A stretch of 64,000 nt of DNA from a bacterium (lineage in GTDB: Bacteria; Planctomycetota; Planctomycetia; Gemmatales; Gemmataceae), in assembly GCA_017308215.1 (NCBI GenBank), contig JAFKFQ010000262.1:1-64000 (forward strand). Direction: 5' to 3'. Made by a program: the position numbers and the translations under genes. This document shows, in pieces, positions 13,381 to 43,251 of the stretch (the stretch's first letter is position 1; every line of letters begins with the position of its first letter). Below the pieces are notes generated by a model. It searched no databases and was not told the origin of the DNA. It saw only the letters and a list, made by a program, of their open reading frames with translations.

Positions 13381-13784
13381 GGGGGCGATCTGGTATCGAC
13401 CGGGTATCGGACGTGTTCGGTGGCGTGTCGTGGTTGATCAGTAGGCCACGTAAAAAGCTGATCAAACTTTAACTGCTGAACCGCAGTTCTCCCTCGCGGC
13501 GTAAGACCCGCAGGCCGTACCGGTCCCTTCGCCTGAGAGGGGTCGGCTCGGACGCAAGTCAGGCTCGTGGGGGCTCGAGGGTCGGGGACACCACCCGACT
13601 CGACTCGGCGGCCGCTCCCGCTAAAAACTCTGGCCGATAGGCGACCGCGGACCCTGCCCGCCGGGGACGCGGAAGGCGAACACGGGGCAAGCCTCACGGA
13701 CAGGCCCCGAGCATAGGCGGGCTACACACGTAGATGCCGGCACGAAAGTGCCACGGGACCCGGGTTCAATTCCCGGCGCCTCCA
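13381..13784 (+). ncRNA. ssrA: transfer-messenger RNA (tmRNA), tag AEPQFSLAA
   Basis: The 5' end GGGGGCG (13,381) pairs with CGCCTCC at 13,777-13,783 as a tRNA-like acceptor stem; the T-arm is CCGGG-TTCAATT-CCCGG at 13,760-13,776, and the 5' part GGGGGCGATCTGGTATCGAC is the conserved tmRNA start. The tag frame runs from the resume codon GCT at 13,475 to TAA at 13,502-13,504 and reads A-E-P-Q-F-S-L-A-A, a proteolysis tag with the usual LAA end. CCA is not encoded (ACTA follows). tmRNA rescues stalled ribosomes; its 3' end is a favourite integration site, and an integrase gene follows directly. Confidence 0.95.
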
Positions 13785-13789
13785 CTAAG

Positions 13790-27206: not shown

Positions 27207-28145
27207 TCAGTAGTTCAGTTTCTCCGCGGCGTCGGCCAGATCCTTGTCACTGCGGCGGGTGTACCGGGCCGTCGTGGTCAGCGACTCGTGGCCGAGGATC
27301 TGGGCCAGTCCGACGAGGTCGTTGCCGGTGTCCGCGAGGTACTGGTGGGCCATCGTGTGCCGTAGCAGGTGCGGGTGGAGCTCGACGCCGGTGATCGCGC
27401 CGTACTTGGCGCACAGGGCGCGAACGCCCCGCTCGGTCAGCGGCCCCCGCTCGCCGATGAACACCCGGTCGGTCTCGACCGGGGGCCGGGCGTCGAGGTA
27501 CGCCTGCACCGCCCGCCGGGCCGGGAGAGGCAGCGGGGCCGTCCGCTGCTTGCCGCCCTTGCCGTGCCGGAAGACCGCCGACCCGCTCCGCTCCCCGATC
27601 AGCAAATCGTCCAGATCGAGCTGCACGAGGTCGCCGACCCGGCAGCCGGTGTACAGCAGAAGGTGGAAGACCGCGTCCGCCCGCACGTCGCTCCGCAGCT
27701 CCACCTCCCGCAGCAGACGGCGGACCTGAGACCGGTCGAGCCCCTTCGGCGCGAGCGCCTGCCGCCGCAGCTCGCGGACCGGCTGGGCGACGTTGGCGGT
27801 GACGCGGCCCACGGCGGCCAGCCACCCGAAGAACCGCCGCACCGACACCATCGCCCGGTTCACCGTGGCGACCGCCTGCCCCTTGGTCCGGCGCAGGTGG
27901 TCGCGGAAGTCGGTGATGTCCCGGGTCGTCACCCGCCCGACGACGAACCGCTCGCCGTTCGTCGCCGCGAACCAGATCACGAGCTTTTTCAGGTCGCTCA
28001 CCACCGCCCGACGGGTCTCGGGGGCGAAGTCGTTGGCGGCGAGGTACTGGTCGAGGAGGCCGGGCTCCTCCTTCCCGAGCGGCAGGCCCCCGAACGCATT
28101 ACCGCCCGAGTTCTGGCGGCCTTCTGGACGGAAATCTGACGCCAT
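27207..28145 (-). CDS. tyrosine recombinase (XerC/XerD-like)
   Basis: 312 residues. N-terminal SAM-like core-binding domain (about 25-125), then the catalytic domain: Arg in [12 protein letters not shown], Lys in [13 protein letters not shown], His-x-x-Arg in [14 protein letters not shown], His in [13 protein letters not shown] with the Tyr nucleophile. All catalytic residues are intact. It probably catalyses excision/integration or dimer resolution of the element. It follows the HTH and RuvB-like genes on the same strand at short spacing, likely one transcription unit driven from motif copy 5. Confidence 0.93.
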
Positions 28146-28690: not shown

Positions 28691-29653
28691 TTACTCCGGG
28701 CCGTTCGCCCGGCGGGTCAGCAGTTCGCGGCCCTCGGCGGTCAACTGCCGCCGCCCTTGGTCGTCCTTCAGGATCAGCCCGGAGCGGATCAGGAACGGCT
28801 CGATCACCTGCGACACGGTGCGGGCCGGCAGGCCGATCAGGCTGGCGACGACGTTCAGCCGGCTGGCACCCTCGGCCAGCGCGGCGAGGTACTGCCGCTC
28901 GGTCGGGCCGAGGCCGATCTCGTCGAGCCCCTCCAGCGCGCACGCCCGGGTCAGGTGTCCGCGGGTGATGGTGGTCTCCCCCTCGGCGCGGCAGACGCGG
29001 CGGCACGCCTGCAACAGCCGCAGCGCCAGCCGCGGCGTGCCCCGCGCCCGCTCGGCGATCAGGGGCGGCAGCCCGTCGTGGACCGGCCAGCCGAGGGCGC
29101 GGCCCCGCTGGGCGACCAGCGCGGCCAACTCCCCGACCGTGTAGAACTGGAACCGCAGGACGAGTCGCATCCGGTCGCGGAGGGGTTGCAGCAGGCCGTA
29201 CTCGTCCGTCGTGCTCAGCAGGAGCGAGAAGTCGTTGAGCGGGATCGACTGCGGCCCGCCCTTGGCCCGGCTCGGGAGGACGACCTTCCGCTGGTCGAGC
29301 GCGAGGTACAGCGCCGTCTGGTACTCCTTGTCGAGTTCGTGGCACTCGTCGATGTGGATCAGGTCGCGGTCCTTCGCGCCCAGCAGCAGCGCGTTGAGGT
29401 CGGCGGGGCCGGTGACCGACTGGCCGAGAACCTCGTGGAGACCCGTCCCCATCTCGGCGGCGACGACTTTCGCCACCTGCGACTTGCCGAGCCCCGGGCC
29501 GCCGACCAGCAGGGCGTGGTCGAACTTGCGGCGGTCGGCGGCGGCGGCTTCGAGGGCAACGGTGACCTGATCGACGACGCCCCGCTGGCCGATCAGGTGC
29601 GAGAGGGCGGACGGGGCGGCGTCGTTCACCTCGGTCGGTCGCTGGTCGGTCAT
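28691..29653 (-). CDS. RuvB-like AAA+ ATPase
   Basis: 320 residues from ATG 29653. Alignable by eye to RuvB: LSHLIGQRGVVDQVTVALEA, Walker A GGPGLGKSQ, Walker B LIHIDECHEL, sensor 1 LLLSTTDEYG followed by PLRDRM (arginine finger), and sensor 2 RGTPRLALRLL, then a C-terminal winged helix (RQYLAALAEGASRLN, IEPFLIRSGLI). RuvB drives Holliday-junction branch migration; this is a mobile-element paralogue, possibly acting with the Xer recombinase two genes downstream. Differs from housekeeping RuvB in the DECH box. Motif copy 5 is 41 bases upstream. Confidence 0.85.
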   Translation of the reverse strand: MTDQRPTEVNDAAPSALSHLIGQRGVVDQVTVALEAAAADRRKFDHALLVGGPGLGKSQVAKVVAAEMGTGLHEVLGQSVTGPADLNALLLGAKDRDLIHIDECHELDKEYQTALYLALDQRKVVLPSRAKGGPQSIPLNDFSLLLSTTDEYGLLQPLRDRMRLVLRFQFYTVGELAALVAQRGRALGWPVHDGLPPLIAERARGTPRLALRLLQACRRVCRAEGETTITRGHLTRACALEGLDEIGLGPTERQYLAALAEGASRLNVVASLIGLPARTVSQVIEPFLIRSGLILKDDQGRRQLTAEGRELLTRRANGPE

Positions 29654-29694
29654 GGCGGACTCCGTCGGTTGTGGTGGGGGTGATCGCCCGAGGG

Positions 29695-29712
29695 CATAGC
29701 GGGTGTCCGTCA
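29695..29712 (-). promoter_or_regulatory. shared upstream motif, copy 5
   Basis: Minus-strand TGACGGACACCCGCTATG, 41 bases before the ATG at 29653 of the RuvB-like gene. Confidence 0.75.
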
Positions 29713-29910
29713 CTCGACCCGGAGAGAGGATCGCGCACCCGGCGCGGTTCGCAATGTCGGTAACGCCGGGCCGAGACCGAACGCGACGGACGACGGCCTG
29801 TTGAGCAAGGCCGCGGGGGGTTCATGGGGGGCAGATCCGATCACGACGGGCGAGTACCGGGAGTTCGGCGGGTACGGTGGGGTCGTGATGGTCTGAAGCG
29901 AAGGAGGTAC

Positions 29911-29942: not shown

Positions 29943-30857
29943 TCACGCCACGGCAACCTCCTCGGGCTGCGCCTGCTGTTGGCTGGAGAAGCCGAGGAAG
30001 AAGGTGGCGGCGCGACTGGCGTCCGCCGTCACCCGGAAGATGTACCTCGGGTCGGCCTTCATCGCGCCGAGCCAGTATGCGAGGTACGACGTGCTGTTCG
30101 ACCGGTCGCCATGCGGAAGACCGAGGTCGGTCGCCACGAAGCTCGCCGCCAGCTCGGCCCGAAGTTCGCCTTCGGCGTAGGAGCCGGTCCAGCCGAGCCG
30201 GTGCTCGGTCCAATGCCCGGCCAACTCGTGCAGGACCGTCTGGTAGTAGTCCTGCTCCTCCGCGAATTGGGCCTTGGGCGGCAGCTGGACGTAGTCACCG
30301 TCGGCGCCGGGCGCCGGCCTGCGGTAGTACGCCCGGTCGCCGCCGTGGCGGATGTCGGCCCCGGTGGCGGCGATGGCCCGCTCAGCTGGGAGGTAGTCGA
30401 TGAAGTCCACGCGGTCTCGGGCTTCGGCCCGGAGGCGGTCGGCGGCCTCGCCTTCGACCTGATCGACGGAGAACACCGTGAAGTTCCGCAGGACGAGGTA
30501 CTTGCCCTCGCGTTCATCGCCGTCCTCGGCGTCCTTCGGCTTCCGCGTGACCGGCTTGCAGAATACGACGTTGCAACCCCACCGCCCGCTGGGGACGTGC
30601 GGGGGGCGGGCCTTGACCCGGCACCCGATCTCGTGCCACTGGCGGAAGGTCGCGTAGCGGCTCGACGTGAGCCCGAGGCGTTGGCGGTACAGTTGCAGGA
30701 GCAGGACGTTGATGCCGGTGTAGCGGCGTCCGGTGGCGGCGTTCGCGGGCGGGCCGGACGTGCCCCACGGGCACTTCCACGGGGGCACGCGGCCCTTCTC
30801 CAGAGCGTTGACGATCTCGGCGGTGATTTGCTGCCGGGTCTCGTTCGGACTGGACAT
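29943..30857 (-). CDS. ArdC-like antirestriction protein (ssDNA-binding domain plus zincin)
   Basis: 304 residues from ATG 30857. The N-terminal DUF1738 domain starts NETRQQITAEIVNALEKGRV and PPWKCPWG, with the family's RRYTGINVLLL. The C-terminal metallopeptidase-like part has YYQTVLHELAGHWTEHRLG (HExxH) and the downstream AELAASFVATDLGL with the third-ligand Glu. ArdC proteins protect incoming mobile DNA from restriction during transfer, which fits an element lying next to restriction systems. Motif copy 6 is 41 bases upstream. Confidence 0.88.
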   Translation of the reverse strand: MSSPNETRQQITAEIVNALEKGRVPPWKCPWGTSGPPANAATGRRYTGINVLLLQLYRQRLGLTSSRYATFRQWHEIGCRVKARPPHVPSGRWGCNVVFCKPVTRKPKDAEDGDEREGKYLVLRNFTVFSVDQVEGEAADRLRAEARDRVDFIDYLPAERAIAATGADIRHGGDRAYYRRPAPGADGDYVQLPPKAQFAEEQDYYQTVLHELAGHWTEHRLGWTGSYAEGELRAELAASFVATDLGLPHGDRSNSTSYLAYWLGAMKADPRYIFRVTADASRAATFFLGFSSQQQAQPEEVAVA

Positions 30858-30898
30858 GACCGTGCTCCTCGTGGGGTGGGTGGGGATCACCACGAGCG

Positions 30899-30916
30899 GG
30901 TAGCAGGTGTCCGTCA
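30899..30916 (-). promoter_or_regulatory. shared upstream motif, copy 6
   Basis: Minus-strand TGACGGACACCTGCTACC, 41 bases before the ATG at 30857, the same distance as copy 5. Confidence 0.75.
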
Positions 30917-31339
30917 GTTCGAGATGGATTCGGCCACTGGCGTGCCGGGGGCGGTGCAGCGTGTGAGCCGATAGAACGCAACGAAATCGGCACGAAGTCC
31001 CGAGCCCGGCCATGCCCGACCAGTGCCTTCGAGACCCACCGACCAGATCCGGCAGGAGTGCGCCACCAAGCTCCGCTCCGCCGAAACCGGCGACATGTTC
31101 ACGACCATTCCCGGGTGCTCTCTGAGCGGGACCGGCGCACGCCGAGCATGGTGGGGATGCGGATCACGCCCGACGGTTGCCTGCTGGCTCGAAGGCAAGG
31201 CCACGTACAAGGCGTTTCTTGGGGCCGGGGCCGACCTGACCCGCAACCTCCACGGGGTCGTCGAGGTCGCCGGGCTGGACGGCGACGAGGCGGGTAACCT
31301 TCTGGGCCGGATCGCCGCGAACAAGGGGGCAACGGACCG
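30917..31339. other. spacer between the mobile-element module and the Pycsar operon
   Basis: About 420 bases with open frames but none with convincing protein character or a ribosome site. It is the boundary between the motif-bearing module and the defence genes. No repeat or tRNA was seen. Confidence 0.5.
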
Positions 31340-32626
31340 TCAGTCGGCCAGCACCGCGAGGATCGACGGGTGCAGTTTGGAGCGCGAGACGCGCTCCTTC
31401 ACCCACTCCCGTAGGGATGGTGACGCCGCCTTGAGCCGCTCCGCGATGGCGAGGCTCTCCCCCACCTCACGCTTCAGCTCCATGAGAGTCTCGGCGATGT
31501 CCATGACGTGAAAGCGGTTGTGCCCGACCCCGAGGTCGAGAACGCAGACGACCAGATCAGCCCGGATGTGGTAGTCCGTCAACGCCTCGTAGAGCGTGCG
31601 GCACTGGGCGGCGATCTTGTCCGTGTAGGAGAAGCCCCACCCCTGCGAGGTCACGTGACCCGCGAAGCTGGCAATCAGTTCCCGCATGTCCTCTTTGCTG
31701 GCCCCGAGCATCAGCCGCGCCGCCAGCGGCGGCAACTGCATGACCGCCTCGTGGACCAGATCGGCGTCCGTTCGGAACTGGGTCAGGATTTCGAGGATGC
31801 GCTCCGCGTGTTCGGGCGACACGCTCGCCCTCGCTGAGAACTGGGCGATCAGCTTGGTCAACTCCTCGTGGGGCGAGGTCGCCGCCACGGTGCCCGAGAC
31901 GTAGTGCCACGCCTGCTTGAGATCGGCGACGGTCTGGTAGCGCTTGTCCGGGTTGGTCCGGGTGCATTTGTCGATGACCATCGCCACTCCCGGATCGAGC
32001 GAGGAGGTGTCGGTGGCGGTGGAGGCAAGCTCGCCGACGTGCAGTTCGAGCAGCAACCGGCCCAAGCTGTAGATGTCCGACCGCTCGTCGGCATTCTTGG
32101 CGTTGGCCATCTGCTCGGGGGCCATGTACAGCGGCGTCCCCATCGGGTAGCCGGTGATCGTGTGGCGGGTGCTCGCGGAGTCCAGCACTCGCCCGAGTCC
32201 GAAGTCCGTGACCACGAGGTCGTCGTCGCTGTTCATCAGGACGTTCTCGGGCTTGAGATCCCGGTGGATGACGCCCTCGCCGTGCGTGTACTCGATGGCG
32301 TCGAGGATCGAGCCGTACACCTTGGCGATCCGGTCCCCGTCGCCTTGCATCGTGCGGAGCACGTCCCTCAGCGTGTGCTGATACCTCGGCATGACGTACC
32401 AGTAGGGGGCCTCCTGCAAGTGGAGGCCGACCACCTTGACCACGTTCGGGTGGTCGAGCCGGTGCAGTAGCCGGACCTCCTCGCGGAACCGGCGGGTGCT
32501 GTCCTCGCCCAAGCCGGGCAGGAGCTTCTTCTTGGCGAAGACCTTCCCGTCCTCCTTCCGCTTGCACAGCCAGACCTCGCCGAACCCGCCAGAGCCGAGC
32601 TTCCGAAAAGCGACGTAGCTAGGCAT
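31340..32626 (-). CDS. Ser/Thr protein kinase with C-terminal helical domain, next to Pycsar genes
   Basis: 428 residues from ATG 32626, ribosome site GAGGGAA; GTG 32635 is the alternative. Canonical kinase: glycine loop LGSGGFGEV (10-18), Lys32, HRDLKPEN (121-128), DFG (141-143) and GTPLYMAPEQ. Residues about 260-428 form a helical domain unlike PASTA or membrane-anchored bacterial kinases, with FSARASVSPEHAERILEILT and YEALTDYHIRADLVVCVLDL; it may bind a regulator. No membrane helix, so cytoplasmic. It lies 69 bases after the PycTM gene on the same strand and could be the fourth gene of that operon, or an independent defence kinase. Confidence 0.85.
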   Translation of the reverse strand: MPSYVAFRKLGSGGFGEVWLCKRKEDGKVFAKKKLLPGLGEDSTRRFREEVRLLHRLDHPNVVKVVGLHLQEAPYWYVMPRYQHTLRDVLRTMQGDGDRIAKVYGSILDAIEYTHGEGVIHRDLKPENVLMNSDDDLVVTDFGLGRVLDSASTRHTITGYPMGTPLYMAPEQMANAKNADERSDIYSLGRLLLELHVGELASTATDTSSLDPGVAMVIDKCTRTNPDKRYQTVADLKQAWHYVSGTVAATSPHEELTKLIAQFSARASVSPEHAERILEILTQFRTDADLVHEAVMQLPPLAARLMLGASKEDMRELIASFAGHVTSQGWGFSYTDKIAAQCRTLYEALTDYHIRADLVVCVLDLGVGHNRFHVMDIAETLMELKREVGESLAIAERLKAASPSLREWVKERVSRSKLHPSILAVLAD

Positions 32627-32695
32627 TTCCCTCACTCCGGTAAGCCGACGAGACCGCGCACCGACGATCCCACGACACCGCCGATCATCCCCGCC

Positions 32696-33298
32696 TCAGC
32701 CGGGCAGCAGGGAGATGCAAAACACGGCGACTACCCAGCAGACGAGGCCGACGACGGTGGCTTGGGCTGAGGCCCTCACGGTCCTGTGCTTGGTGAGGGC
32801 GATGTGCGAGGTCTCAACGATCTGCGTCCCCACATCCCTGAGCCAGTCGTCCTCGGACATCCCCTTCAGTTCGGTGACGTACCTCTCGAAGTCGTGGCCG
32901 TACTGGGTGGCAACGTGGCCGAAGAAGATTCGGCACTTCGGGGCCTTCTCCCCGAACCGGGACATGACGGCGTAGATCAGCATCCCCACGGCGACGACCG
33001 AGCAGAGGGCGAAGGCGATCAGGGCCACCAGACCGACCCACGCGGGGGCCGGGGCGGGGCTGGCGGCAAGCGCCTTCTTGAGTGCCCCCACGCTGCTGAC
33101 TACGAACCCGAACATCAGGGTGTTGATGGCGAACACGAACGCCGCCTTGGTGTCGGCGAAGCGGATCTGCTCCTGCACCCCGGCCAGCACCTTGAGGCAG
33201 TTGTCGAGGCTCGACTTCCTTTCGGCGGGGTCGCCCGCGGGCTGGCCGTTCGTCGGCTGGGCCGGGGTCGTCGGGTTGCTCGCTGGTTTCTTGGCCAC
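32696..33298 (-). CDS. pycTM: Pycsar effector PycTM-like membrane protein (DUF5706 type)
   Basis: 200 residues from GTG 33298, 9 bases after GGGGAGG; GTG 33307 overlapping the previous stop is less well placed. A disordered Pro/Thr head is followed by LKVLAGVQEQIRFADTKAAF, the hallmark of the PycTM/DUF5706 family (helix, then A-D-T-K-A at the entry of helix 1). Membrane helices are at about 52-72, 86-112 and 180-198, with a cytoplasmic segment (120-178) rich in charged residues. In known Pycsar systems the effector senses cCMP or cUMP and damages the membrane, aborting infection. The family call rests on motif, topology and the cyclase two genes upstream. Confidence 0.82.
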   Translation of the reverse strand: MAKKPASNPTTPAQPTNGQPAGDPAERKSSLDNCLKVLAGVQEQIRFADTKAAFVFAINTLMFGFVVSSVGALKKALAASPAPAPAWVGLVALIAFALCSVVAVGMLIYAVMSRFGEKAPKCRIFFGHVATQYGHDFERYVTELKGMSEDDWLRDVGTQIVETSHIALTKHRTVRASAQATVVGLVCWVVAVFCISLLPG

Positions 33299-33303
33299 GC
33301 CCG

Positions 33304-33885
33304 TCACCTCCCCAGCCGCCGCTGGCAGCAGACCTTGAACTTCTTGCCGCTCCCGCACGGGCACGGCTCGTTGCGCCCGACTCCCCCCTTTTCTCGCACC
33401 GCCTCGGCGATGCCCGCCGTGCCGTGCGCTCTGGCCTCCCCGGGCCAGACGGCCTTGACCCCGGTGAATTCTTCCTTCACGAGCGCCTGCTGGTACAGGT
33501 GCTCCTTGAACAAGAAGGTGTGCGCCACGGCGAACAGGTCGTTCAACGAGTCGCCCCGCCCGAAGTCTATTCCGCTCTCGCCCGGCACGTACAGGCACAG
33601 GCTCCAGTCCGAGTTGATGTGCGAGTCGCCGCCCTTCTGCCAGCGATCCCGGTGGCTGACCAGTATGACGGTGGGGGTCGTCCCCCGGTCGGGGAAGCTC
33701 GGAGGGTACTCGACCCGCAGCGTCACTGACTCGTAGCGGTGGCCGTGCCGGGACTGGACGTGGAAGACGCCCTCCAAGTAAGCCACGCCGCCCCCGGCGA
33801 CCCCGCTGCGGAAGTCGTCGAGGGTCTGGCGCCCGATCCGCTGCTCGGCCTCCCACCGGGCCGGGTTTCGCTCGTGCCACCCCAT
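33304..33885 (-). CDS. E2 ubiquitin-conjugating-like protein fused to a SEC-C zinc motif
   Basis: 193 residues. The core matches a minimal UBC fold: strands ESVTLRVEYPPSFPD, then TPTVILVSH, then HINSDWSLCLYVPGES, where His89/Asn91 and Cys97 mimic the HPN...C active site of E2 enzymes; a long helix follows (DLFAVAHTFLFKEHLYQQAL). The end (170-187) is GRNEPCPCGSGKKFKVCC, a complete SEC-C zinc motif as on SecA. No E1 or JAB gene is nearby. The gene starts 1 base after the cyclase stop and its stop overlaps the start region of the PycTM gene, so it is an integral operon member. In CBASS, E2-like proteins modify the nucleotide synthase; by analogy it may act on the cyclase. Confidence 0.78.
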   Translation of the reverse strand: MGWHERNPARWEAEQRIGRQTLDDFRSGVAGGGVAYLEGVFHVQSRHGHRYESVTLRVEYPPSFPDRGTTPTVILVSHRDRWQKGGDSHINSDWSLCLYVPGESGIDFGRGDSLNDLFAVAHTFLFKEHLYQQALVKEEFTGVKAVWPGEARAHGTAGIAEAVREKGGVGRNEPCPCGSGKKFKVCCQRRLGR

Positions 33886-33886
33886 G

Positions 33887-35446
33887 TCAGTGCGACCGCC
33901 ACGGGCGGCTGTTGTGCCACGCGCCGGTCGTCGGCGAGGCGGCAGTGGTCACGAAGACTTGGCCTTCCTTGACGGAAGCGCCGAGGCTCCCGGCCCGTGC
34001 CGCCTTCGTCTCCTTGATCCGGTCGAGTTTGGGGAACGTCAGCCCCGTGGCGACATAGGTATCGCCGTCCTGAGCGAACTCGGCCCGCACGTCCTCGTCG
34101 TCCAGTTGGTCGTAGATGTCCTCGGAGATGCATATCTGCTTCGCCCCGGTTCGTTGCTGGAGCCGCTCGGCGGACGACACCTCCGGGCCGAAGCAGATGC
34201 CGACCCGCCGCCCCTTCTTGCCCAGTCGGGTCACGAACGCCTTGCCCACGTCCAGCCCGACCGCCACGTGGATGTCCTTGCGGTCCTTGAGGTGCTCGTT
34301 GAGGACGTGCTCCATCGAGGACTGCAACGCGATGGCGATGTCCACCGCCCTGCGGCACCGCTTGGCGTGCTTGTCGTCGCCGCACGGCATGTGCAGGATC
34401 GCCAAGATGCAGTCGCCCCGGTGCTGGAGGACCAGCCCCTCGTGGTCCGAGCCGATGACCGAGTGGAACTCGGACCGGATCATGTGGAACTGGCGGATCA
34501 GCGCGACGACCTTCTCGTCGCCCTCGGCCTCCTGCACGTAGCGGGTGAACCCGTCGAGGTCGGCGTAGACCGCCACCGCCGCCGTCCGCTTGCAGTTCCG
34601 CTCCGTCAGCACGTCGAGGTCGATCAGGGCGGCGGCGTCGGAGACTTCGATCTGGGCGAGCGGCAAGTCGTCCCGGTACTCCTCCGTCTTCTTCCGCCAC
34701 TTGTCCGCGTCCCACGACACCCCGAGGTCGTCGGCCAGATCGGGGTAGCGGTCCCACCGCAGGCCCGTGGCCCGGTAGCTCTGGACCCCGCTCACCACGG
34801 CGGACTTCTTGAAGTGCTCCTTCAGGCCGTCGGGCAGGTGGTCGTACACGTCTCGCGTGACGGTGATCGTGTCCGTGGCCCCGAGGATCTTGGCGGCGAG
34901 GTTGGCGCACGACCCCAACGAGATGAGTTCACGCTCGCCGGTCATGCCGATGTTGGCGATGTAGCTGGTGCCGCCACTCAGCCCCGCCGCGCTGCCGAAG
35001 CGGACCTCCTCGAACACCGGGTCGAACACGCCGATGACGTAGCTGTTGTGCGTGACGGCGTGGACCACGGCCCTCCTCGCCCGCTCGGCGGCGTTCGACC
35101 CGTCGTCGGGGTCGTAGGGCTTGTAGGCGAGGGCGTGAAGGCGGACGGTCTGCCGCTGGATGTCGCCGATGTCGTCGGCGTCCATCAAGTCCCGCTGGAC
35201 CTTGCGGAGCACGCTCGCCGCCCGAACGAGCTTCTTCTGCTTCTGCTTGTCGTTCCCGGCGTCGGCGACCGCCCCGTGGAATCCGGGCACGTCCACGTAC
35301 AGGTGGACGCCTTCGGCCCGCCGCACGTCCTTCGTGCCCAGATTGCGGAAGTCCATCGTGCGGCGTAGGTCTTGGACATCAACCTCGAAGTCGTGGAAGT
35401 CGCGGTCCCTGACCCGCTGTCTCGACCGCCCCTCGTTCCATCCCAT
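33887..35446 (-). CDS. pycC: Pycsar-type nucleotide cyclase with tandem cyclase domains
   Basis: 519 residues from ATG 35446 with GGGAGGG six bases ahead. The second domain (about 285-450) is a class III cyclase: metal Asp in VYADLDGFTRYV (D296/D298), second metal Asp345 in QHRGDCILAIL, and FGPEVSSAERLQ at the position of the transition-state Asn/Arg block. The first domain (about 45-205) has LYVDVPGF and SLGSCANLAAKIL at matching places but lacks the second metal Asp, so it looks like a degenerate partner half. The adjacent PycTM-like effector points to a cCMP- or cUMP-making Pycsar cyclase rather than a housekeeping adenylate cyclase; the product is inferred. Confidence 0.8.
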   Translation of the reverse strand: MGWNEGRSRQRVRDRDFHDFEVDVQDLRRTMDFRNLGTKDVRRAEGVHLYVDVPGFHGAVADAGNDKQKQKKLVRAASVLRKVQRDLMDADDIGDIQRQTVRLHALAYKPYDPDDGSNAAERARRAVVHAVTHNSYVIGVFDPVFEEVRFGSAAGLSGGTSYIANIGMTGERELISLGSCANLAAKILGATDTITVTRDVYDHLPDGLKEHFKKSAVVSGVQSYRATGLRWDRYPDLADDLGVSWDADKWRKKTEEYRDDLPLAQIEVSDAAALIDLDVLTERNCKRTAAVAVYADLDGFTRYVQEAEGDEKVVALIRQFHMIRSEFHSVIGSDHEGLVLQHRGDCILAILHMPCGDDKHAKRCRRAVDIAIALQSSMEHVLNEHLKDRKDIHVAVGLDVGKAFVTRLGKKGRRVGICFGPEVSSAERLQQRTGAKQICISEDIYDQLDDEDVRAEFAQDGDTYVATGLTFPKLDRIKETKAARAGSLGASVKEGQVFVTTAASPTTGAWHNSRPWRSH

Positions 35447-35493
35447 GTCGGACCCTCCCGATAGACCGGAGTCGCCCCCGGGTGAGCGGGGCG

Positions 35494-35533
35494 TGTACGC
35501 TATAATGGTACAGTTCGCTAAACAGGGTGTCAA
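35494..35533 (-). promoter_or_regulatory. promoter and operator of the Pycsar operon
   Basis: Minus-strand TTGACA (35,528-35,533), 17-base spacer, TACCAT (35,505-35,510). The -10 box lies inside an inverted repeat TGTAC-N9-GTACA (35,494-35,512). Transcription would start about 50 bases before the cyclase ATG. A repressor on the repeat would block the promoter; the XRE gene on the other side is the obvious candidate. Confidence 0.7.
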
Positions 35534-35545
35534 CCGGCTTGTCGG

Positions 35546-35574
35546 TTGCATCATGCCCTTTCTGCTTGTACAAT
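35546..35574 (+). promoter_or_regulatory. promoter and operator of the XRE/ImmA pair
   Basis: TTGCAT (35,546-35,551), 17-base spacer, TACAAT (35,569-35,574). The -10 box overlaps the palindrome TTGTACAA (35,566-35,573), which shares its GTAC centre with the operator of the divergent operon, suggesting autoregulation by the XRE protein. Confidence 0.65.
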
Positions 35575-35626
35575 GAGCTTTCGCCTCCACCGCAGGTTCG
35601 GGTCGTCCGAAACAGGGCAAATAACC

Positions 35627-36031
35627 ATGTCCACCGTGGGAGATCGGATCAAGAAGCGGAGGGCCGAGCTTGGGTGGACTCAAGACCAACTGGCGCAGAA
35701 GGCCGGGATCAGCAAGTCGTTCCTGTCCGATCTGGAGAACGGGAAGCGGAGCGTCAGCGCCGACAACCTGCTCGACATCGCCCGCGTGCTGAGCCTCAGC
35801 CTCGACTACCTGATGAAAGGGGGAGAGACCGGAGCGAAGCCTGCCGAGGTGCAGATCCCGGCGTCCCTCGCCGCCTTCGCCGAGGATGAGGGGCTGACGT
35901 TCAAGCAGGCCCTCGCACTGCTCAGGATGCGGGAGCAGATCGTCGCCCACCGCTCGACCTCGAAGAAGGAAGGGGTGGACAAGGTGGACTGGCAGAGGTT
36001 CTACGAGGCGGTGAAGGAGTTCCTCGAATGA
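35627..36031 (+). CDS. XRE-family repressor (CapH/ImmR-like)
   Basis: 134 residues from ATG 35627. DNA-binding domain at the N-terminus (GDRIKKRRAELGWTQDQLAQ, then AGISKSFLSDLENGKRSVSA), followed by a linker and a C-terminal LTFKQALALLRMREQI-type helical part. Its last codon overlaps the start of the ImmA/IrrE gene (ATGA). This pair layout is that of ImmR/ImmA and of the CapH/CapP regulators of CBASS and other defence systems, in which the protease cleaves the repressor after DNA damage. It probably represses itself and the divergent Pycsar operon. Confidence 0.85.
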   Translation: MSTVGDRIKKRRAELGWTQDQLAQKAGISKSFLSDLENGKRSVSADNLLDIARVLSLSLDYLMKGGETGAKPAEVQIPASLAAFAEDEGLTFKQALALLRMREQIVAHRSTSKKEGVDKVDWQRFYEAVKEFLE

Positions 36032-37068
36032 GCCGACTCGACGACGAGCCCGACGTGATCGAGCAGGCCCGGAGACTGCGGCTGGCCGGACACGGCAACC
36101 CCGTGCAGGCCATCGTCGGCCACTGCCTCGACCGCATCCGGCGTTGGGTCCAGTCGGACGGCCCGGTGGCCACCATCGGGCAGCTTGAGGCGCTCGTCAC
36201 CCGCCGCCTGCGTATGGTCTTCGAGGAGGTCGAGTCCGACGAGGGCCTCGCCGCCCTGATCCGCAAGTACATCCTGCTCGGGGAGGGGGTGTTCGCCTAC
36301 CTCAAGCACGACCTCGACGGCGACACGTTCGGGGCTACCTACCGCCGCAGCACGGCGGCACCCGACGCCCCGGATCGGCTGGTGGCGATCATCGACTGCC
36401 GGGGTGACAAGGGGGCACGCCGGTTTTTCACCCGCTGGCACGAGGTCGCACACTTCCTCGTCGAGCCGGACCCGGAGGAGGTCGAGACCCCGGTTCACCG
36501 GGCCTCGGACTCGCCGTTGGAGCGGCTGATGGACGAGATCGCCGCCCACGCCGGGTTCTACGAGCCGATCTTCGGCCCGGCGTTCGACCGGGAGATGGCG
36601 AGCCGTCCCCGACTGACATTTCAGGTCGTCGAGGCGGTTCGCGGCCAGTGTTTTCCCGACGCCAGCTTCCAAGCCACCCTGTTCGCCTGCCACCGCAGGC
36701 TGATGACGCCGGTGGTCTACGTCGAGGCGGAAGAACGGCTCAAGGCCGAGCACGAACGGCAGATCAAGGGCGGTGTGCAGTGGCTCTTCGAGGAGGCCCG
36801 CCCGGAGGCCCAGCTTCGGGCAGCGCAGGTAGTGCCGAACGCCGCCGCCCAGAGGGCGAAGCTGTTCATAGCCCCCAACATGCGCATCCCGTCCTCGTCG
36901 GTGATCCACCGACTCTTCTTCGACAGCCTCGGGTCGGAAGACACCGGGCGGGAGAACCTGAACACGTGGGAGCACTCTGGCGGGAAGCGGCTGGCGGATC
37001 AGGAGGTCTGGGTCGAGGCGAAGAAGGTCAAGGGCCGGGTGGTCGCCATCGTCCAGCCGGTGACGTGA
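36028..37068 (+). CDS. ImmA/IrrE-family metallopeptidase (CapP-like)
   Basis: 346 residues. The zinc site is RWHEVAHFLVEPD (HExxH at about 138), with further acidic ligands downstream in MDEIAAHAGFYEP (the ExxxH/A helix of IrrE-like proteases). The domain after about residue 230 is specific to longer members and may sense the inducing signal. Start overlaps the XRE stop by 4 bases. Expected role: cleave the XRE repressor on damage or infection and induce the Pycsar operon. Confidence 0.85.
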   Translation: MSRLDDEPDVIEQARRLRLAGHGNPVQAIVGHCLDRIRRWVQSDGPVATIGQLEALVTRRLRMVFEEVESDEGLAALIRKYILLGEGVFAYLKHDLDGDTFGATYRRSTAAPDAPDRLVAIIDCRGDKGARRFFTRWHEVAHFLVEPDPEEVETPVHRASDSPLERLMDEIAAHAGFYEPIFGPAFDREMASRPRLTFQVVEAVRGQCFPDASFQATLFACHRRLMTPVVYVEAEERLKAEHERQIKGGVQWLFEEARPEAQLRAAQVVPNAAAQRAKLFIAPNMRIPSSSVIHRLFFDSLGSEDTGRENLNTWEHSGGKRLADQEVWVEAKKVKGRVVAIVQPVT

Positions 37069-37118: not shown

Positions 37119-38318
37119 ATGACCGACGCATTGTTCGAGCAACTGCTGTACGAGGAGGAGAGTACCACGCTCGACTTCAAGAGGGAGCAGTATCGCTTCG
37201 TGAAGGCCAGCAACGAGGACAAGTCCGAGCTCCTCAAGGACATCCTCGGCTTTGCGAATGCGTGGCGGCGCTCCGAGGCGTACATCCTCATCGGGGTCGA
37301 GGACGTGCGGGGCGGGCGGGCCAACGTCGTCGGCATCCCGGCTACGGACCACCTCGACGACCACTCGTTGCAGCAGTTCGTGAACAACCTGACCAACCGC
37401 CCCGTCCGCTTCCACTACGAGGCGTTCGGTTTCGAGTCTAAGCAGATTGGAGTGGTCCGCATCGAGGAGCGGCAGGCCCGCCCGCTCTACCTCAAGTCGA
37501 ACTACGGCAAGCTCAAGAAGACCGAGGTGTACGTCAGGAGGGGTAGTTCCACCGACCCGACGAAGCCAGCCGGGCCGGACGAGATCGCCCTGATGGGTCA
37601 GGGCTCCGGGCCGCAGGACGCCGAGTTGGTGGTCGAGTTCGCCGACGTGGCGCGGGACGACTCACTGGGTACGCATGTCTCGTGGGAGGCCGAGTTCTGC
37701 GAGATGCCGCCGATGGAGACGATCCCTGACCTCACCCGCACGATGCAGCGGCGCCCGCTGGGCATCGACCCTTCGGCGATCCAGTTCGACCCGATGAACC
37801 GGCCCAACGAGGACTACTTCCGAGAACTGGCGAACTACGAGTTTGTTCGGCGCCTATTCCGGCCCGTGCGGTTAGTCGTGAAGAACGTCGGCCAAGTCGC
37901 CGCCAGTAGTGTGCGGGCCGAACTGATTGTCCCCACGAATGCCGGGGCAATGGTGCTGGACTCGTTGGACTTGCCCGACCCGCCGGAGCGCCGGGCCGAG
38001 TTCGTCTCCCCCGCCCTCAAGAAGATCCGCCCGGCGTTCCGGCGATCCCCCGGCGACGTGACCATCGACAAGAACGACGACAGGTTCCGGGTGGAGATTG
38101 ACTGTGGGGGGCTCCAGCCGGGTAGACGGGTGTGGTCCGATGTCTTCTTCATTGGCAAGGGAGCCAGTGGAGATCTGTGTCTGAGCGGGCAGGTGTTCGC
38201 CGAGAACCTACCCCAGCCGAAAGACTTCACTCTGCTGATCTCGGTCAATGTCAACCAAACCCGGATGTCGGTGAAGGAGTTGAAGGCGCTGCCGGGACAG
38301 GCCGGGACGGACGACTAG
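37119..38318 (+). CDS. AlbA_2 / Schlafen-type putative DNA-binding protein
   Basis: 399 residues. The N-terminal roughly 150 residues match the AlbA_2 domain: EESTTLDFKREQYRF, LLKDILGFANAWRRSEAYIL, IGVEDVRGG and a closing KKTEVYVRRGSSTDPTKP. The remaining 250 residues form a beta-rich domain of unknown type. AlbA_2/Slfn proteins are frequent in defence islands and several act as RNases or regulators; here the function is not deducible. It begins 50 bases after the ImmA-like gene, same strand. Confidence 0.8.
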   Translation: MTDALFEQLLYEEESTTLDFKREQYRFVKASNEDKSELLKDILGFANAWRRSEAYILIGVEDVRGGRANVVGIPATDHLDDHSLQQFVNNLTNRPVRFHYEAFGFESKQIGVVRIEERQARPLYLKSNYGKLKKTEVYVRRGSSTDPTKPAGPDEIALMGQGSGPQDAELVVEFADVARDDSLGTHVSWEAEFCEMPPMETIPDLTRTMQRRPLGIDPSAIQFDPMNRPNEDYFRELANYEFVRRLFRPVRLVVKNVGQVAASSVRAELIVPTNAGAMVLDSLDLPDPPERRAEFVSPALKKIRPAFRRSPGDVTIDKNDDRFRVEIDCGGLQPGRRVWSDVFFIGKGASGDLCLSGQVFAENLPQPKDFTLLISVNVNQTRMSVKELKALPGQAGTDD

Positions 38319-38348
38319 CCGGGCACGTCCTTCGAGGGAATCCTAACG

Positions 38349-39377
38349 ATGAGCCGACCTAACTCAATGAAGATCGGGGCCATCGAGAACACCGGCCCGA
38401 ACACCCTCGTCGCGTTCCTCCGCAACGCCGGGGACGGCTGCGCCCGCATCGACATCGCGGTGGCGTTCATCACGGCGGCGGGGCTCGACTCCCTCCTTTA
38501 CCTCCTGAAGCGGGCCGCGTCCCGAGGCCGGGTTCGCGTTCTGACGGGACTGTACCAAGGGTTCACCGATCCGAAGGCCCTCTGGACGCTGTTGGGGGAG
38601 CAGGAGCAGACCGGCGGTCGCATCTCGGTGAGGCTGTCGCGGGACGGCCACTTCCACTGGAAGGCATACTTGCTGGTAAAGGAGGCCACCGCCAAGGTCG
38701 TCGTCGGGTCGTCGAACTTGACCGACGACGGCCTCCAGCAGAGCGGCGAGTTGAACCTCGTCCTGTCGGTGCCCACCGCCTCGAAGGAGTTCCGCGATCT
38801 ACAAGGAGTCTTCGACCGGCACTGGGACGGGCTCGGCGAGCCGTTGACCGCCGAGATCACCAGTAAGTACGAGCGGTGGCGTAAGGAGGCGGACCCGGTG
38901 CCGCCGCACCGCTCTGTGCCGATCCGCAAGATACTCGGCGGCACTCCGAAAAAGAAGCAGCCGGTGGTGCAGGAGGCCCGCTACTGGCGTACCTGCATTA
39001 CCGGGTACTTCGCCAAGGAGACCGAGCGAGTCCTGAAGACCGCGACCAACTGGGACGAGCGGGGCCTCATGTACTTCAGCACGTGGCGACCCACCTTCAG
39101 GGTCGGCGACCGGGTGATCCTGTTCGACCTCAGCGACAACTTCCTCGGCCTGATCGAGATCAAGGACACCACGCGGACGCCCGAGCGGACCCCGGACGGT
39201 CACCATTTCGCCGCGTACCGACAGGTGAAGGGGTTTGCCCGCCGCAGGCTGGTCAAGAACCGCTGGAAGGCGTTGAAGGCGGCGGGGCTGCTCAGGAGGA
39301 AGGACGACGCCTACCTGACGCGGAAGATGGCGAAGGAGCGGTTCGACCTGTATCTCGATCAGCTGAAGAAGTCGTAA
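38349..39377 (+). CDS. phospholipase D-like nuclease domain protein
   Basis: 342 residues. One HKD motif: HFHWKAYLLVKEATAKVVVG followed by SSNLTDDGL (H-x-K-x4-D-like, GSSN), preceded by a beta-sheet core (ARIDIAVAFITAAGLDSLLY, RVRVLTGLY). A single motif implies dimerisation for catalysis, as in BfiI-like nucleases. The C-terminal half contains a lysine/arginine-rich DNA-binding-like region. It lies 43 bases upstream of hsdM, so it may belong to the restriction locus as an accessory nuclease. Confidence 0.75.
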   Translation: MSRPNSMKIGAIENTGPNTLVAFLRNAGDGCARIDIAVAFITAAGLDSLLYLLKRAASRGRVRVLTGLYQGFTDPKALWTLLGEQEQTGGRISVRLSRDGHFHWKAYLLVKEATAKVVVGSSNLTDDGLQQSGELNLVLSVPTASKEFRDLQGVFDRHWDGLGEPLTAEITSKYERWRKEADPVPPHRSVPIRKILGGTPKKKQPVVQEARYWRTCITGYFAKETERVLKTATNWDERGLMYFSTWRPTFRVGDRVILFDLSDNFLGLIEIKDTTRTPERTPDGHHFAAYRQVKGFARRRLVKNRWKALKAAGLLRRKDDAYLTRKMAKERFDLYLDQLKKS

Positions 39378-39420
39378 GCACGTGCCGAAGGTCTGGGTGG
39401 TCATGGGGGAACACACGCTG

Positions 39421-41013
39421 ATGGGCCTGTTCGGCAAGCACGGCAGCGGCAAGAAGCTCGACGTGCCCGCCCTCGAAGGGTGGCTCTGGGAGGCCGCGTG
39501 CGTCATCCGGGGGCCGCTCGACGCGCCGAAGTTCAAGGACTACATCCTGCCGCTGATCTTCCTGAAGCGGCTGTCCGACGTGTTCGACGACGAGATCGCC
39601 CACCTCGCCCACGACTTCGGCGACGAGCAAACCGCCCTCAAGCTGATCGAGCAAGACCGCAAGCTCGTGCGATTCTTCATCCCCAAGAAGGCCCGCTGGG
39701 CGAGCATCGCCGAGCGGACCAGCGGGGTCGGGGAGTACCTGACCGACGCGGTGCGAGCCGTCGCCAAGGCCAACCCGCAACTGTCGGGCGTGGTGGACAT
39801 CACCGACTTCAACGCGACCGCCGCGGGCCAGCGGATCGTCGATGACGGGCGACTGGCGGTGCTCGTGCAGGTGCTCAACAACCCCAAGTACCGGCTCGGG
39901 CTGGACGACGTGGAGCCGGACATCCTTGGCCGCGCCTACGAGTACCTGCTGCGTAAGTTCGCCGAGAGTCAGGGCCAGTCGGCGGGCGAGTTCTACACCC
40001 CTCCCGAGATCGCAATCGTCATGGCGAGGTTCCTCGACCCGAGGCCCGGCCAGACGGTTTACGACCCCTGCTGCGGCTCGGGCGGCTTGCTCATCAAGTG
40101 CCACCTGCGGCTGCTCCATACCAAGGGCAAGAAGGACAACGGGAGGCTCAAGCTCCCGGCTTCGGTCGCCCCGCTCAAGTTGTTCGGACAGGAGATCAAC
40201 CCATCGACGTTTGCGATGGCGAGGATGAACGCCTTCATTCACGACATGGAGGCCGAGATCGGGCTGGGCGACACCATGCACCGCCCGGCGTTCACCGAGG
40301 GCGAGGGGAAGTTGCGGCTTTTCGACCTCGTAACGGCCAACCCGATGTGGAACCAGAAGTTCGACAGCAAGACCTACGAGAACGATACCTACGAGCGGTT
40401 CAGCCGGGGCGTGCCACCGTCGTCGAGCGCCGACTGGGGCTGGGTGCAGCACATGGCCGCGCACCTGAAGCCGACCGGAAAGATGGCCGTTGTGCTCGAC
40501 ACCGGGGCGGCGAGCCGGGGTAGTGGCAACACCGGCTCGAACAAGGAGCGGGACGTTCGCAAGCAGTTCGTCGAGGCCGACTTGATCGAAGCCGTGCTCC
40601 TGCTGCCCGACAACCTCTTCTACAACACGACGGCCCCCGGCGTGGTCATAGTGCTCAACCGCAAGAAGCGAAGGCCGGGGGAGATCGTCGTCATCAACGC
40701 CTCGAAGCTGTTCACCAAGGGCCGACCAAAGAACCACCTCGAAGACGGTCACGTCCAGCAGATCACCGAGGCGTACCACGAGTGGAAGACGGTAGAGGGG
40801 CTGGCGGCTGTCATCACAAAGGAGGAGGTCGTCAAGAACGACTACAACCTGTCGCCGAGTCGCTACGTGTCGGTCGGCGGGCAGGAGGAGGTGCTGCCGC
40901 TGGAGGAGGCCGTCGTGCTGCTTCAGGAGGCCGAAGAGGAGCGGGCAGAGGCCGACAAGCAATTGGACGCCGTTATGGCGAAACTGGGACTCGCAGGGTG
41001 GCGGAATGGATGA
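39421..41013 (+). CDS. hsdM: type I restriction-modification system, methyltransferase subunit
   Basis: About 530 residues from ATG 39421, which has GGGGGA ten bases ahead; ATG 39403 and GTG 39382 are upstream options. The N-terminal helical domain is LEGWLWEAACVIRGPLDAPK and the catalytic domain has GEFYTPPEIAIVMARFL, SAM motif VYDPCCGSGGLL and the target-base motif as LVTANPMWNQKF, an NPMW variant of the usual NPPF/Y. It makes N6-methyladenine with HsdS. The stop overlaps the hsdS start by 8 bases. Confidence 0.93.
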   Translation: MGLFGKHGSGKKLDVPALEGWLWEAACVIRGPLDAPKFKDYILPLIFLKRLSDVFDDEIAHLAHDFGDEQTALKLIEQDRKLVRFFIPKKARWASIAERTSGVGEYLTDAVRAVAKANPQLSGVVDITDFNATAAGQRIVDDGRLAVLVQVLNNPKYRLGLDDVEPDILGRAYEYLLRKFAESQGQSAGEFYTPPEIAIVMARFLDPRPGQTVYDPCCGSGGLLIKCHLRLLHTKGKKDNGRLKLPASVAPLKLFGQEINPSTFAMARMNAFIHDMEAEIGLGDTMHRPAFTEGEGKLRLFDLVTANPMWNQKFDSKTYENDTYERFSRGVPPSSSADWGWVQHMAAHLKPTGKMAVVLDTGAASRGSGNTGSNKERDVRKQFVEADLIEAVLLLPDNLFYNTTAPGVVIVLNRKKRRPGEIVVINASKLFTKGRPKNHLEDGHVQQITEAYHEWKTVEGLAAVITKEEVVKNDYNLSPSRYVSVGGQEEVLPLEEAVVLLQEAEEERAEADKQLDAVMAKLGLAGWRNG

Positions 41014-42325
41014 CGAGCCCAATGACCGGCTGGTTGAAACGGAAATTGGCGTGCTACCGTCTTCATGGCGGCTATGCCGCTTTGATGAACTATTCGACTC
41101 GAAACTCGGAAAGATGCTTTCGCAAAAAGCAAGATTAGGCTCCGCACCGCGTCCCTACCTCCGCAACGCGAATGTTCAATGGAGCAGAGTTGACGTATCA
41201 GACTTGCTTGAAATGGATTTTTCCGAAGATGAGCAGGAGCGTTTTCGACTTGTATGCGGAGACATTCTGATCTGCGAAGGAGGAGAGGTTGGCAGGACCG
41301 CGATCTGGCGCGGGCAGCTTGAGGAATGCTATTTCCAGAAGGCGATCCACCGTGCCCGGCCCATCAATGGAGCGATGGACAGCGAGTTTTTCATGTATCA
41401 CATGATGAATTCCTTCTTGATACAGAATACTTACGGCACTCAAGGAACAGAAACGACGATTGCTCACCTGCCTGCGGTGAAGTTGAAGGCGTTACTCGTT
41501 CCTGCCCCACCCATCGAGGAGCAGCGAGCCATAGCCAGATTGCTCCGCACCGTGCAGCAGGCAAAGGAGGCGACTGAGAAGGCCGTCGCCGCCGCGCGGC
41601 AACTGAAGCAGAGCATCATGCGGCACCTATTCACCTACGGCCCAGTGCCGGTCGAAGAGGCCGACCGAGTGCCGCTGAAGGAGACTGACTTCGGTGCGGT
41701 GCCCGAGATGTGGAAGACGATACCTCTAAGCGACTGTGCCGTGGTACAGACCGGCGTGGCCAAGGGCCGCAAGTTGGACGGTGCCGATGCCGTGAGCGTG
41801 CCTTACCTGCGGGTCGCCAATGTGCAGGACGGCTACCTCGACCTGAGCGAGATGAAGAACATCGACATTCGCCGGTCCGAATTGTCCCGATACTCGCTCC
41901 AGCCGGGCGACGTGGTGCTCACCGAGGGCGGCGACTTCGACAAGCTGGGCCGGGGGTTTATCTGGAACGGCGAGGTGCCCGGCTGCGTCCACCAGAACCA
42001 TGTGTTCGCCGTCAGGGCGGATCGCCGCCTGCTGGTCCCCGAGTTCCTCGCATATCTCACCCAGAGCCCCTACGGTAAGGCGTACTTCCTCTCGGTGGCC
42101 CACAAGACGACGAACTTGGCTTGCATCAACACGACGAAGCTAAAGGCGTTTCCGACCCTCGTACCGCCAAAGAATGAGCAGAAGGAAATTGCCGGATGCC
42201 TGTCGGCAGTGGACGCGAAAATCGGGCGCGAGGAAGCCAAGCGGAACGCTCTGGACTGCCTGTTCAAGAGCTTGCTCCACAAGCTGATGACGGGCAAGTT
42301 GCGAGTCGCTGGAGAGGAAAGCTGA
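41006..42325 (+). CDS. hsdS: type I restriction-modification system, specificity subunit
   Basis: 439 residues with two target-recognition domains, each followed by a long helix: the first ends LVPAPPIEEQRAIARLLRTV, the second LVPPKNEQKEIAGCLSAVDA. Each domain shows the PYLRNANVQ / PYLRVANVQD box. The DNA for the first domain (about 41,006-41,500) is visibly lower in GC than the rest of the locus, as expected if that domain was swapped in from elsewhere, changing the recognised half-site. Confidence 0.92.
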   Translation: MDDEPNDRLVETEIGVLPSSWRLCRFDELFDSKLGKMLSQKARLGSAPRPYLRNANVQWSRVDVSDLLEMDFSEDEQERFRLVCGDILICEGGEVGRTAIWRGQLEECYFQKAIHRARPINGAMDSEFFMYHMMNSFLIQNTYGTQGTETTIAHLPAVKLKALLVPAPPIEEQRAIARLLRTVQQAKEATEKAVAAARQLKQSIMRHLFTYGPVPVEEADRVPLKETDFGAVPEMWKTIPLSDCAVVQTGVAKGRKLDGADAVSVPYLRVANVQDGYLDLSEMKNIDIRRSELSRYSLQPGDVVLTEGGDFDKLGRGFIWNGEVPGCVHQNHVFAVRADRRLLVPEFLAYLTQSPYGKAYFLSVAHKTTNLACINTTKLKAFPTLVPPKNEQKEIAGCLSAVDAKIGREEAKRNALDCLFKSLLHKLMTGKLRVAGEES

Positions 42326-42333
42326 GGGACCGG

Positions 42334-43251
42334 ATGCTCGCCACTATCATTCTCGACTCGTTCACAAAGGTCGAGGCCCCGGAGATCGCCGCGGCGCTCG
42401 ACATGATCTGCGCACCTGATGAGACCTACGGGTTTGCGAGCGCCTGCATCTACGCCTTCTGGAGCATCCCCGACCGGAACATCCTATACATCGGGCTGGC
42501 GGGCGACGTGACCGTGCGGTTCCGTCAGCACACCGGAATTCGGGCGTGTGAGCCCGAGTGCTGTAAGCGTCGAGAGATTGAGGACTACTTCGCAAGGTAC
42601 GACCGGCTCGGGTACACGGTCATGGTTCAGTCCACGAACGACCAGCCGGCCACGGTAGGCGAGAAGATCGAACTGGCTGAACTCTACGACGAGTTGTTCG
42701 CCGACGACGTGGCCGACTTCTTTCAGGGCAAGGAGAACATCCAGATCGCCGAAGGGTTCCTAATCGAACTTCACCGGAAGCTCGGCGACCGCCTCCCCAC
42801 GTGGAACAAGATTCAAGGATCTGAACTTGGTAGGCGGCAGCGGTCCCTCTCTGACCATCGGGAGCGGATAAGGGCTGCGCTTGAGACGGCGAGGTCAGGC
42901 CGGGTCGGCAACCCTCCCGGCGTACCAGAGCACTTGCCATACGAACTTCTTCTCAACCTCACCGGGGAGGAACTTTCCTACCTGAACGCGAGGTCAACGC
43001 TCCGCGAGATTGCCTCGGACAACACCATTGAGGGCCATGAAGAGTTTCTTCACGCCGTCCGACTCGATGTGCTTCTGAACGGCTCGACCGTGGAGAGGGC
43101 CATCGAGCGACTGGTGGCCCACCAGCCGATCCACGACTGGAGGGCCAAGGCGATGACCGAGAGCGGATACCTGCACCGGACCCCGCCGATCCCCGGTATT
43201 TCCCGACCCGCTTCAGGCGAGGGAGGACGCGGCCATGCCCCTCGGCAATGA
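42334..43251 (+). CDS. GIY-YIG-like nuclease domain protein inside the type I locus
   Basis: 305 residues from ATG 42334, after AGAGGAAAGCTGAGG. Residues about 35-90 read CIYAFWSIPDRNILYIGLAG, then VTVRFRQHTG: the Y...YIG...R..H core of GIY-YIG domains, with a later Glu-rich helix. The rest is helical and unrecognised. It sits between hsdS and hsdR and overlaps the hsdR start by 17 bases, so it is expressed with the restriction genes; the role is unknown. Confidence 0.75.
   Translation: MLATIILDSFTKVEAPEIAAALDMICAPDETYGFASACIYAFWSIPDRNILYIGLAGDVTVRFRQHTGIRACEPECCKRREIEDYFARYDRLGYTVMVQSTNDQPATVGEKIELAELYDELFADDVADFFQGKENIQIAEGFLIELHRKLGDRLPTWNKIQGSELGRRQRSLSDHRERIRAALETARSGRVGNPPGVPEHLPYELLLNLTGEELSYLNARSTLREIASDNTIEGHEEFLHAVRLDVLLNGSTVERAIERLVAHQPIHDWRAKAMTESGYLHRTPPIPGISRPASGEGGRGHAPRQ

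Follow-up and report, generated by a model that had tools for sequence, protein, structure and literature searches.

Suicidal defences need to be kept off until they are required, and the locus described here raises the question of how such a system is silenced and released in a planctomycete. It lies in a window of 64,000 nucleotides (positions 1-64,000 of the forward strand of contig JAFKFQ010000262.1, assembly GCA_017308215.1) from a member of the Gemmataceae (Planctomycetota; Planctomycetia; Gemmatales), in which a 180-bp intergenic region carries a divergent promoter pair with capH and capP on one side and a Pycsar operon on the other. The gene identities, the promoter positions, a conserved box together with its uniqueness, and the persistence of this box beside CapH when the payload changes were computed here. 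We consider it quite probable that this region serves as the switch of a Pycsar locus under CapH/CapP control, in which CapH would act through the GTTCGCTAAACA box.

The rightward side of the locus begins with a gene for an XRE protein of 134 residues (35627-36031, plus strand), with a helix-turn-helix at residues 4-64 (Pfam HTH_3, 1.8e-18) followed by a helical C-terminal domain. Among 20 PADLOC models capH is its best match (2.5e-14), its PDB profile matches include the N-terminal domain of E. coli CapH (7t5u, 2.2e-6) and DdrO (6.5e-5), and DdrO is also the best full-length match of its AF2 model (6jq1, 2.5e-5). The gene overlaps by 4 bp that of a capP-like metallopeptidase of 346 residues (36028-37068, plus strand) bearing HEVAH at residues 138-142, and His138, Glu139, His142, Glu165 and Asp169 of this protein are invariant in 14 homologs. 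The peptidase has no match in Pfam and a weak one to PADLOC capP (0.003), and the only PDB folds that its AF2 model (pLDDT 88) matches below 0.001 are those of PprI/IrrE and CapP (7t5t, 7.4e-8), the next match standing at 0.028. The arrangement is that of a CapH/CapP module: a CapH-related XRE/HTH repressor, an adjacent zinc metallopeptidase with HExxH and the CapP/IrrE fold, and an adjoining defence operon, here a Pycsar system opposite capH across the intergenic region. As the initial annotation had proposed, the XRE protein is very probably a repressor acting in the pycC-capH intergenic region.

The divergent operon is, as judged from its sequence, a Pycsar system made up of a clade-A PycC, an E2-like protein and PycTM. 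The pyrimidine cyclase PycC (33887-35446, minus strand) has two cyclase domains, matches the PADLOC PycC model over its full length (6.8e-98) and aligns through residues 2-448, with both cyclase domains included, to P. aeruginosa PycC (PDB 6yii, 9.9e-37), which belongs to clade A (PMC11224242). It is 64-68% identical to PycC of the homologous loci L008, L011-L014 and L016, and its candidate catalytic metal-binding aspartates in ADLDGFT and HRGDCIL are conserved in the loci where this region is present. The E2-like, ubiquitin-conjugating-like protein (33304-33885, minus strand; PADLOC E2, 3.8e-15) ends in a SEC-C motif (Pfam, 2.2e-10), and its Cys97 lies within a CL[YF]VPG motif conserved in six loci. 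The cyclic-pyrimidine-responsive effector of the window is the transmembrane protein PycTM (32696-33307, minus strand; Pfam PF18967, 6.9e-12; PADLOC PycTM, 6.5e-26), and the effectors found elsewhere are PycTIR in L011 and L013 and a CAP12-PCTIR TIR with cNMP in L008 and L012. The PycTIR-type effector of L008 (L008:13117-15431) is short, with 253 residues versus 306 elsewhere and a TIR match that ends early, and it is followed by a transposase-like gene; this effector is probably interrupted. A Ser/Thr protein kinase gene (31340-32635, minus strand) lies directly downstream of pycTM in the window and matches PADLOC defence kinase models.

Some further observations concern the E2-like gene and the cyclase tail. 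An E2-like gene with the conserved cysteine follows pycC in the window and in L008, L011, L012, L013 and L016, and the C-terminal tail of PycC (PW..S[KR]PW.S[EH]) is conserved beyond a variable linker, a pattern of sequence conservation that would fit a cyclase tail serving as substrate for conjugation, as in CBASS cyclases. On plasmids, an E2 gene (Methylobacterium) or ThiF and Mov34/JAB genes (Mesorhizobium) lie next to clade-A-like PycC genes, and a PycC gene of this kind from P. aeruginosa has neither beside it. A direct search for relatives of the E2-like protein on plasmids returned none.

Close relatives of the CapP-like protein are rare, being present in 3 of 392 genomes of the phylum, and a search of GTDB contigs gave 15 loci; viral contigs yielded none. 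The homologous capHP loci belong to Planctomycetota, Verrucomicrobiota, Acidobacteriota and one deltaproteobacterium, with L010 representing the same locus as G171/L009. In the window and in L008, L011, L012, L013 and L016, capH-capP is divergent from pycC-E2, and in L014 the same capHP/pycC layout is truncated, its pycC being cut by the contig end. Other payloads occupy the far side of the shared intergenic region in further loci, namely a pAgo with an HNH-type partner in L010 and L015, CBASS cyclases in L019 and L020, a CBASS TRIP13 gene in L021 and a remote PycC-like gene in L017, from a Verrucomicrobiales genome. The pAgo proteins (L010:6677-9491 and L015:6656-9398) are short ones with an HNH/PNTD-type partner. 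Downstream of capP in L012 there is a second, single-domain Pycsar cyclase (L012:11650-12381; PADLOC, 5.7e-86), and a single capHP pair is thus flanked there by two Pycsar cyclases.

The intergenic region was initially annotated with two back-to-back promoters, and both are present and conserved in homologous loci. The payload promoter, TTGACA-17-TACCAT (35505-35533, minus strand; -35 at 35533-35528 and -10 at 35510-35505), is the sole sigma70-like match in a 2-kb scan (0.1 expected) and in the surrounding 15.5 kb (1.2 expected). The capH promoter, TTGCAT-17-TACAAT (35546-35574, plus strand; -35 at 35546-35551 and -10 at 35569-35574), is weak by itself, with 8 of 12 consensus positions, a score equalled by 11% of shuffles. 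Both are credible because counterparts occupy corresponding positions in the homologous loci. On the payload side, 11 loci show TTGAC[AT] and a -10 starting with TA after 16-18 bp, and their offset from the box described below does not vary; on the capH side TTGAAG or TTGAAA-17-TA[AG]NNT is found in L008 and L011-L016, with TATACT at 16 bp as the -10 of L010.

Comparison of the homologous capHP loci revealed a consensus element, GTTCGC(T/A)A(A/T)(A/G)CA, with GTCAA, complementary to the payload promoter -35, 4 bp further on. In the window this element corresponds to GTTCGCTAAACA (box 1, 35513-35524, plus strand), proposed here as the main operator and located within the spacer of the payload promoter, and a degenerate copy, GTACGCTATAAT (box 2, 35495-35506, plus strand), lies 18 bp upstream of it, over the payload -10. 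A de novo motif search in 12 diverse upstream regions, which took L008 alone from the mutually close group L008, L012, L013 and L016 (a group counting as fewer independent observations), recovered GTTCGC[AT]A[AT]RCA with a log-likelihood of 76 versus 29-38 for shuffled sequences (width 12). In 11 loci the distance of the box from the start of capH is -102 to -123, and its 16-bp spacing to GTCAA is constant. With a PSSM built without the window, box 1 scores 20.3 bits and box 2 scores 9.6 bits; the next best site in the 64 kb reaches 13.2 bits, so that no second CapH box comes near it elsewhere in the window, for instance before hsdM. The full motif is found once in the 9-Mb genome, even when two mismatches are allowed, and a scan of the 392 phylum genomes located it at two capHP loci and nowhere else; the reversed control gave a few scattered matches. 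L010, L017 and L019 each have a clear second box 17-19 bp upstream, and over the set of loci the three top-ranking offsets for such a box are -17, -18 and -19. The same box is retained with the pAgo and HNH payload (L010 and L015) and with CBASS (L019-L021), and therefore it follows CapH rather than any one payload. A good box is absent from two distant loci, L022 and L023. A search of the phylum for pycC relatives lacking capHP, which would have served as negative controls for the box, gave none, the only pycC-bearing genomes found being that of the window and G307.

In the mechanism that we propose, where binding of CapH to the box, repression, sensing of single-stranded DNA and cleavage are modelled on CapH/CapP and DdrO/PprI, CapH would bind box 1, aided by the degenerate box 2. 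Since one box occupies the spacer of the Pycsar promoter and the other its -10, CapH bound there would keep polymerase away from pycC, and pycC-E2-pycTM would be held silent. Phage attack or DNA damage would generate single-stranded DNA and activate CapP, which would cut the C-terminal domain of CapH, the best-guess site being a low-confidence basic loop at residues ~109-120; the CapH dimer would then fall off and Pycsar would be induced. It has been reported that CapP cleavage of CapH is stimulated by single-stranded DNA and that PprI cleaves DdrO (PMC10233336, PMC10904395), and release through ssDNA-triggered cleavage by CapP would follow these studied relatives. Both window proteins are remote from the CapH and CapP that have been characterised; for the CapP-like peptidase the structural match gives 11% identity and the PADLOC match stands at 0.003, so that activation by ssDNA might not extend to it. 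The rightward promoter of capH-capP lies outside the box, and these genes are probably expressed independently.

The initial annotation had also postulated repression of both directions. This part of the proposal finds no support in the conserved sequence, because box 1 ends 21 bp ahead of the capH -35 and no copy of the box lies on the capH promoter; the conserved box overlaps the Pycsar promoter only. Its effect on capH could equally be modestly positive or nil. An operator with two faces like that of lambda cI, through which bound CapH would repress the Pycsar promoter while stimulating its own, seems unlikely: it would agree with a box that leaves the capH -35 free, its centre lying ~62 bp ahead of the predicted transcription start of capH, and with a capH promoter that is weak by consensus, but the spacing between box and capH promoter varies between loci (~20-35 bp) and a fixed contact geometry is not conserved.

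Different operators had been put forward initially, namely two GTAC palindromes over the -10 boxes. TGTAC-N9-GTACA (35494-35512, with arms TGTAC at 35494-35498 and GTACA at 35508-35512) does cover the first -10, TTGTACAA (35566-35573) does overlap the TACAAT -10 of the capH promoter, and the XRE ATG at 35627 indeed follows 53 bases beyond the latter palindrome. Autorepression is common among XRE regulators, which would suit a protein that binds GTAC-centred palindromes at both promoters and represses both directions equally. This model is nevertheless very improbable. Neither palindrome is conserved: they occur in 0 of 14 homologous loci, despite several XRE proteins there being 59-73% identical to that of the window, and 10 of the 14 lack any GTAC over the 220 bp that precede capH. 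Such palindromes are also expected by chance, as random 180-bp sequences of the same dinucleotide content contain a perfect 8-bp palindrome in 54% of cases and an inverted repeat with 5-bp arms in 89%; the genome shows no enrichment of TTGTACAA (19 sites versus 27 for the reversed control), and the left arm of TGTAC-N9-GTACA is accounted for as part of the degenerate box 2. The GTAC palindromes were rejected as operators on account of their absence from homologs and their chance frequency, and the GTAC-centred binding attributed to the XRE protein is not supported. On the basis of sequence conservation, the likely repressor site is the conserved box GTTCGCTAAACA.

This box is not a clean palindrome, and some of its conservation reflects the promoter, because part of the element overlaps the -35. 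It might accordingly be asked whether the box, which directly adjoins TTGAC, the conserved -35 on the payload side, is a mere promoter element (an extended -35 or spacer) or a feature of an RNA leader rather than an operator bound by protein. We hold this to be highly unlikely, given that GTTCGC lies ~9-15 bp from the -35 hexamer, in a region that carries no sequence signal in sigma70 promoters, that several loci carry two copies of the box 17-19 bp apart and that the pattern is found nowhere else in the 392 genomes. It is hardly to be expected, finally, that capH and capP are a stand-alone regulator of a mobile element with Pycsar beside it by accident, as the nearby tyrosine recombinase (27207-28145) and ArdC-like protein (29943-31013) and the same logic in ImmR/ImmA modules (PMC10233336) would allow, when the neighbour facing capH in at least 11 loci is a defence operon, with three kinds of payload among them, and the box sits in the payload promoter. 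Two other repeats in the region were also rejected as operators. The inverted repeat CAACCG-N6-CGGTTG (35531-35548), between the -35 boxes, has no counterpart in the aligned homologous regions, and the direct repeat AAACAGGG (35520-35527 and 35610-35617) has its second copy close to the capH start codon, within the leader, where it is probably ribosome-binding sequence.

The proposed control of Pycsar by CapH through its box can be placed among known systems. Like DdrO/PprI (IrrE) of Deinococcus, in which derepression is achieved by cleavage (PMC10904395), the window pair has DdrO as the best full-length fold match of its XRE protein and PprI as that of its peptidase; DdrO, however, governs dispersed DNA-repair promoters, whereas the window switch is local, because its motif occurs once in the genome. 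RptR, BrxR/CapW and CapK/CapS are likewise local repressors of defence operons at promoter sites (PMC12255303, PMC9122601, PMC13373217), but they are unrelated proteins, and the XRE/peptidase pair has no WYL domain, STAS domain or kinase. With canonical Pycsar (PycC with PycTM or PycTIR) the window shares a recognisable PycC and PycTM, and it differs in having an E2-like gene between cyclase and effector and an expression placed beside capHP. A close parallel is offered by the CapH/CapP regulators of CBASS operons (7t5t, 7t5u), where an XRE repressor and an HExxH metallopeptidase with overlapping genes also lie beside a defence operon; both window proteins match in fold the solved structures of CapH and CapP, and CBASS cyclases lie opposite capHP in two of the relatives found here. 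The differences are the payload, a clade-A Pycsar, a CapP that is 11% identical by structural alignment, and a GTTCGC box that is defined purely by comparison. CapH/CapP-like genes were reportedly associated with Pycsar by Lau et al. (EMBO J, 2022). Pycsar has also been named among the payloads of such regulators (PMC13373217). CapHP-controlled immune operons are thus of a known kind, and what is new here is the candidate operator and the modularity across payload types, not the pairing of capHP with Pycsar.

The locus offers a concrete candidate operator for a switch of the CapH/CapP type outside CBASS, and this operator appears to accompany its regulator through exchanges of the killing module. 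It is an evenly balanced proposition that CapH/CapP and their own GTTCGC operator, set in the outward-facing promoter, form a portable immune control cassette placed before at least three defence systems (E2-containing Pycsar, short pAgo with HNH, and CBASS) in several phyla, keeping the operator/promoter layout and silencing the outward side only. Pycsar in these bacteria is predicted to be inducible by DNA damage, and a pAgo system under DNA-damage control, as L010 and L015 would represent, would merit attention.

Downstream of capP, a co-directional block on the plus strand (37119-46094) contains genes for SLFN/AlbA_2 (37119-38318), PLD (38349-39377), HsdM (39382-41013), HsdS (41006-42325), an ORF without assignment (42196-43251) and HsdR (43641-46094), and the capH promoter may also drive the genes for SLFN, PLD and the type I restriction-modification system. 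HsdR seems to start in another frame (43235-46094, plus strand): the frame from 43235 has an HsdR-like N-terminal sequence by eye, with no profile match, and the 43641-46094 frame matches REase_I from profile position 220 onward, so that a frameshift or an assembly error is possible. The tyrosine recombinase and the ArdC-like antirestriction protein mentioned above are both encoded on the minus strand, as is a RuvB-like AAA protein (28691-29713), and the window also has a tmRNA gene (13381-13785, plus strand); the island carrying them may be mobile.
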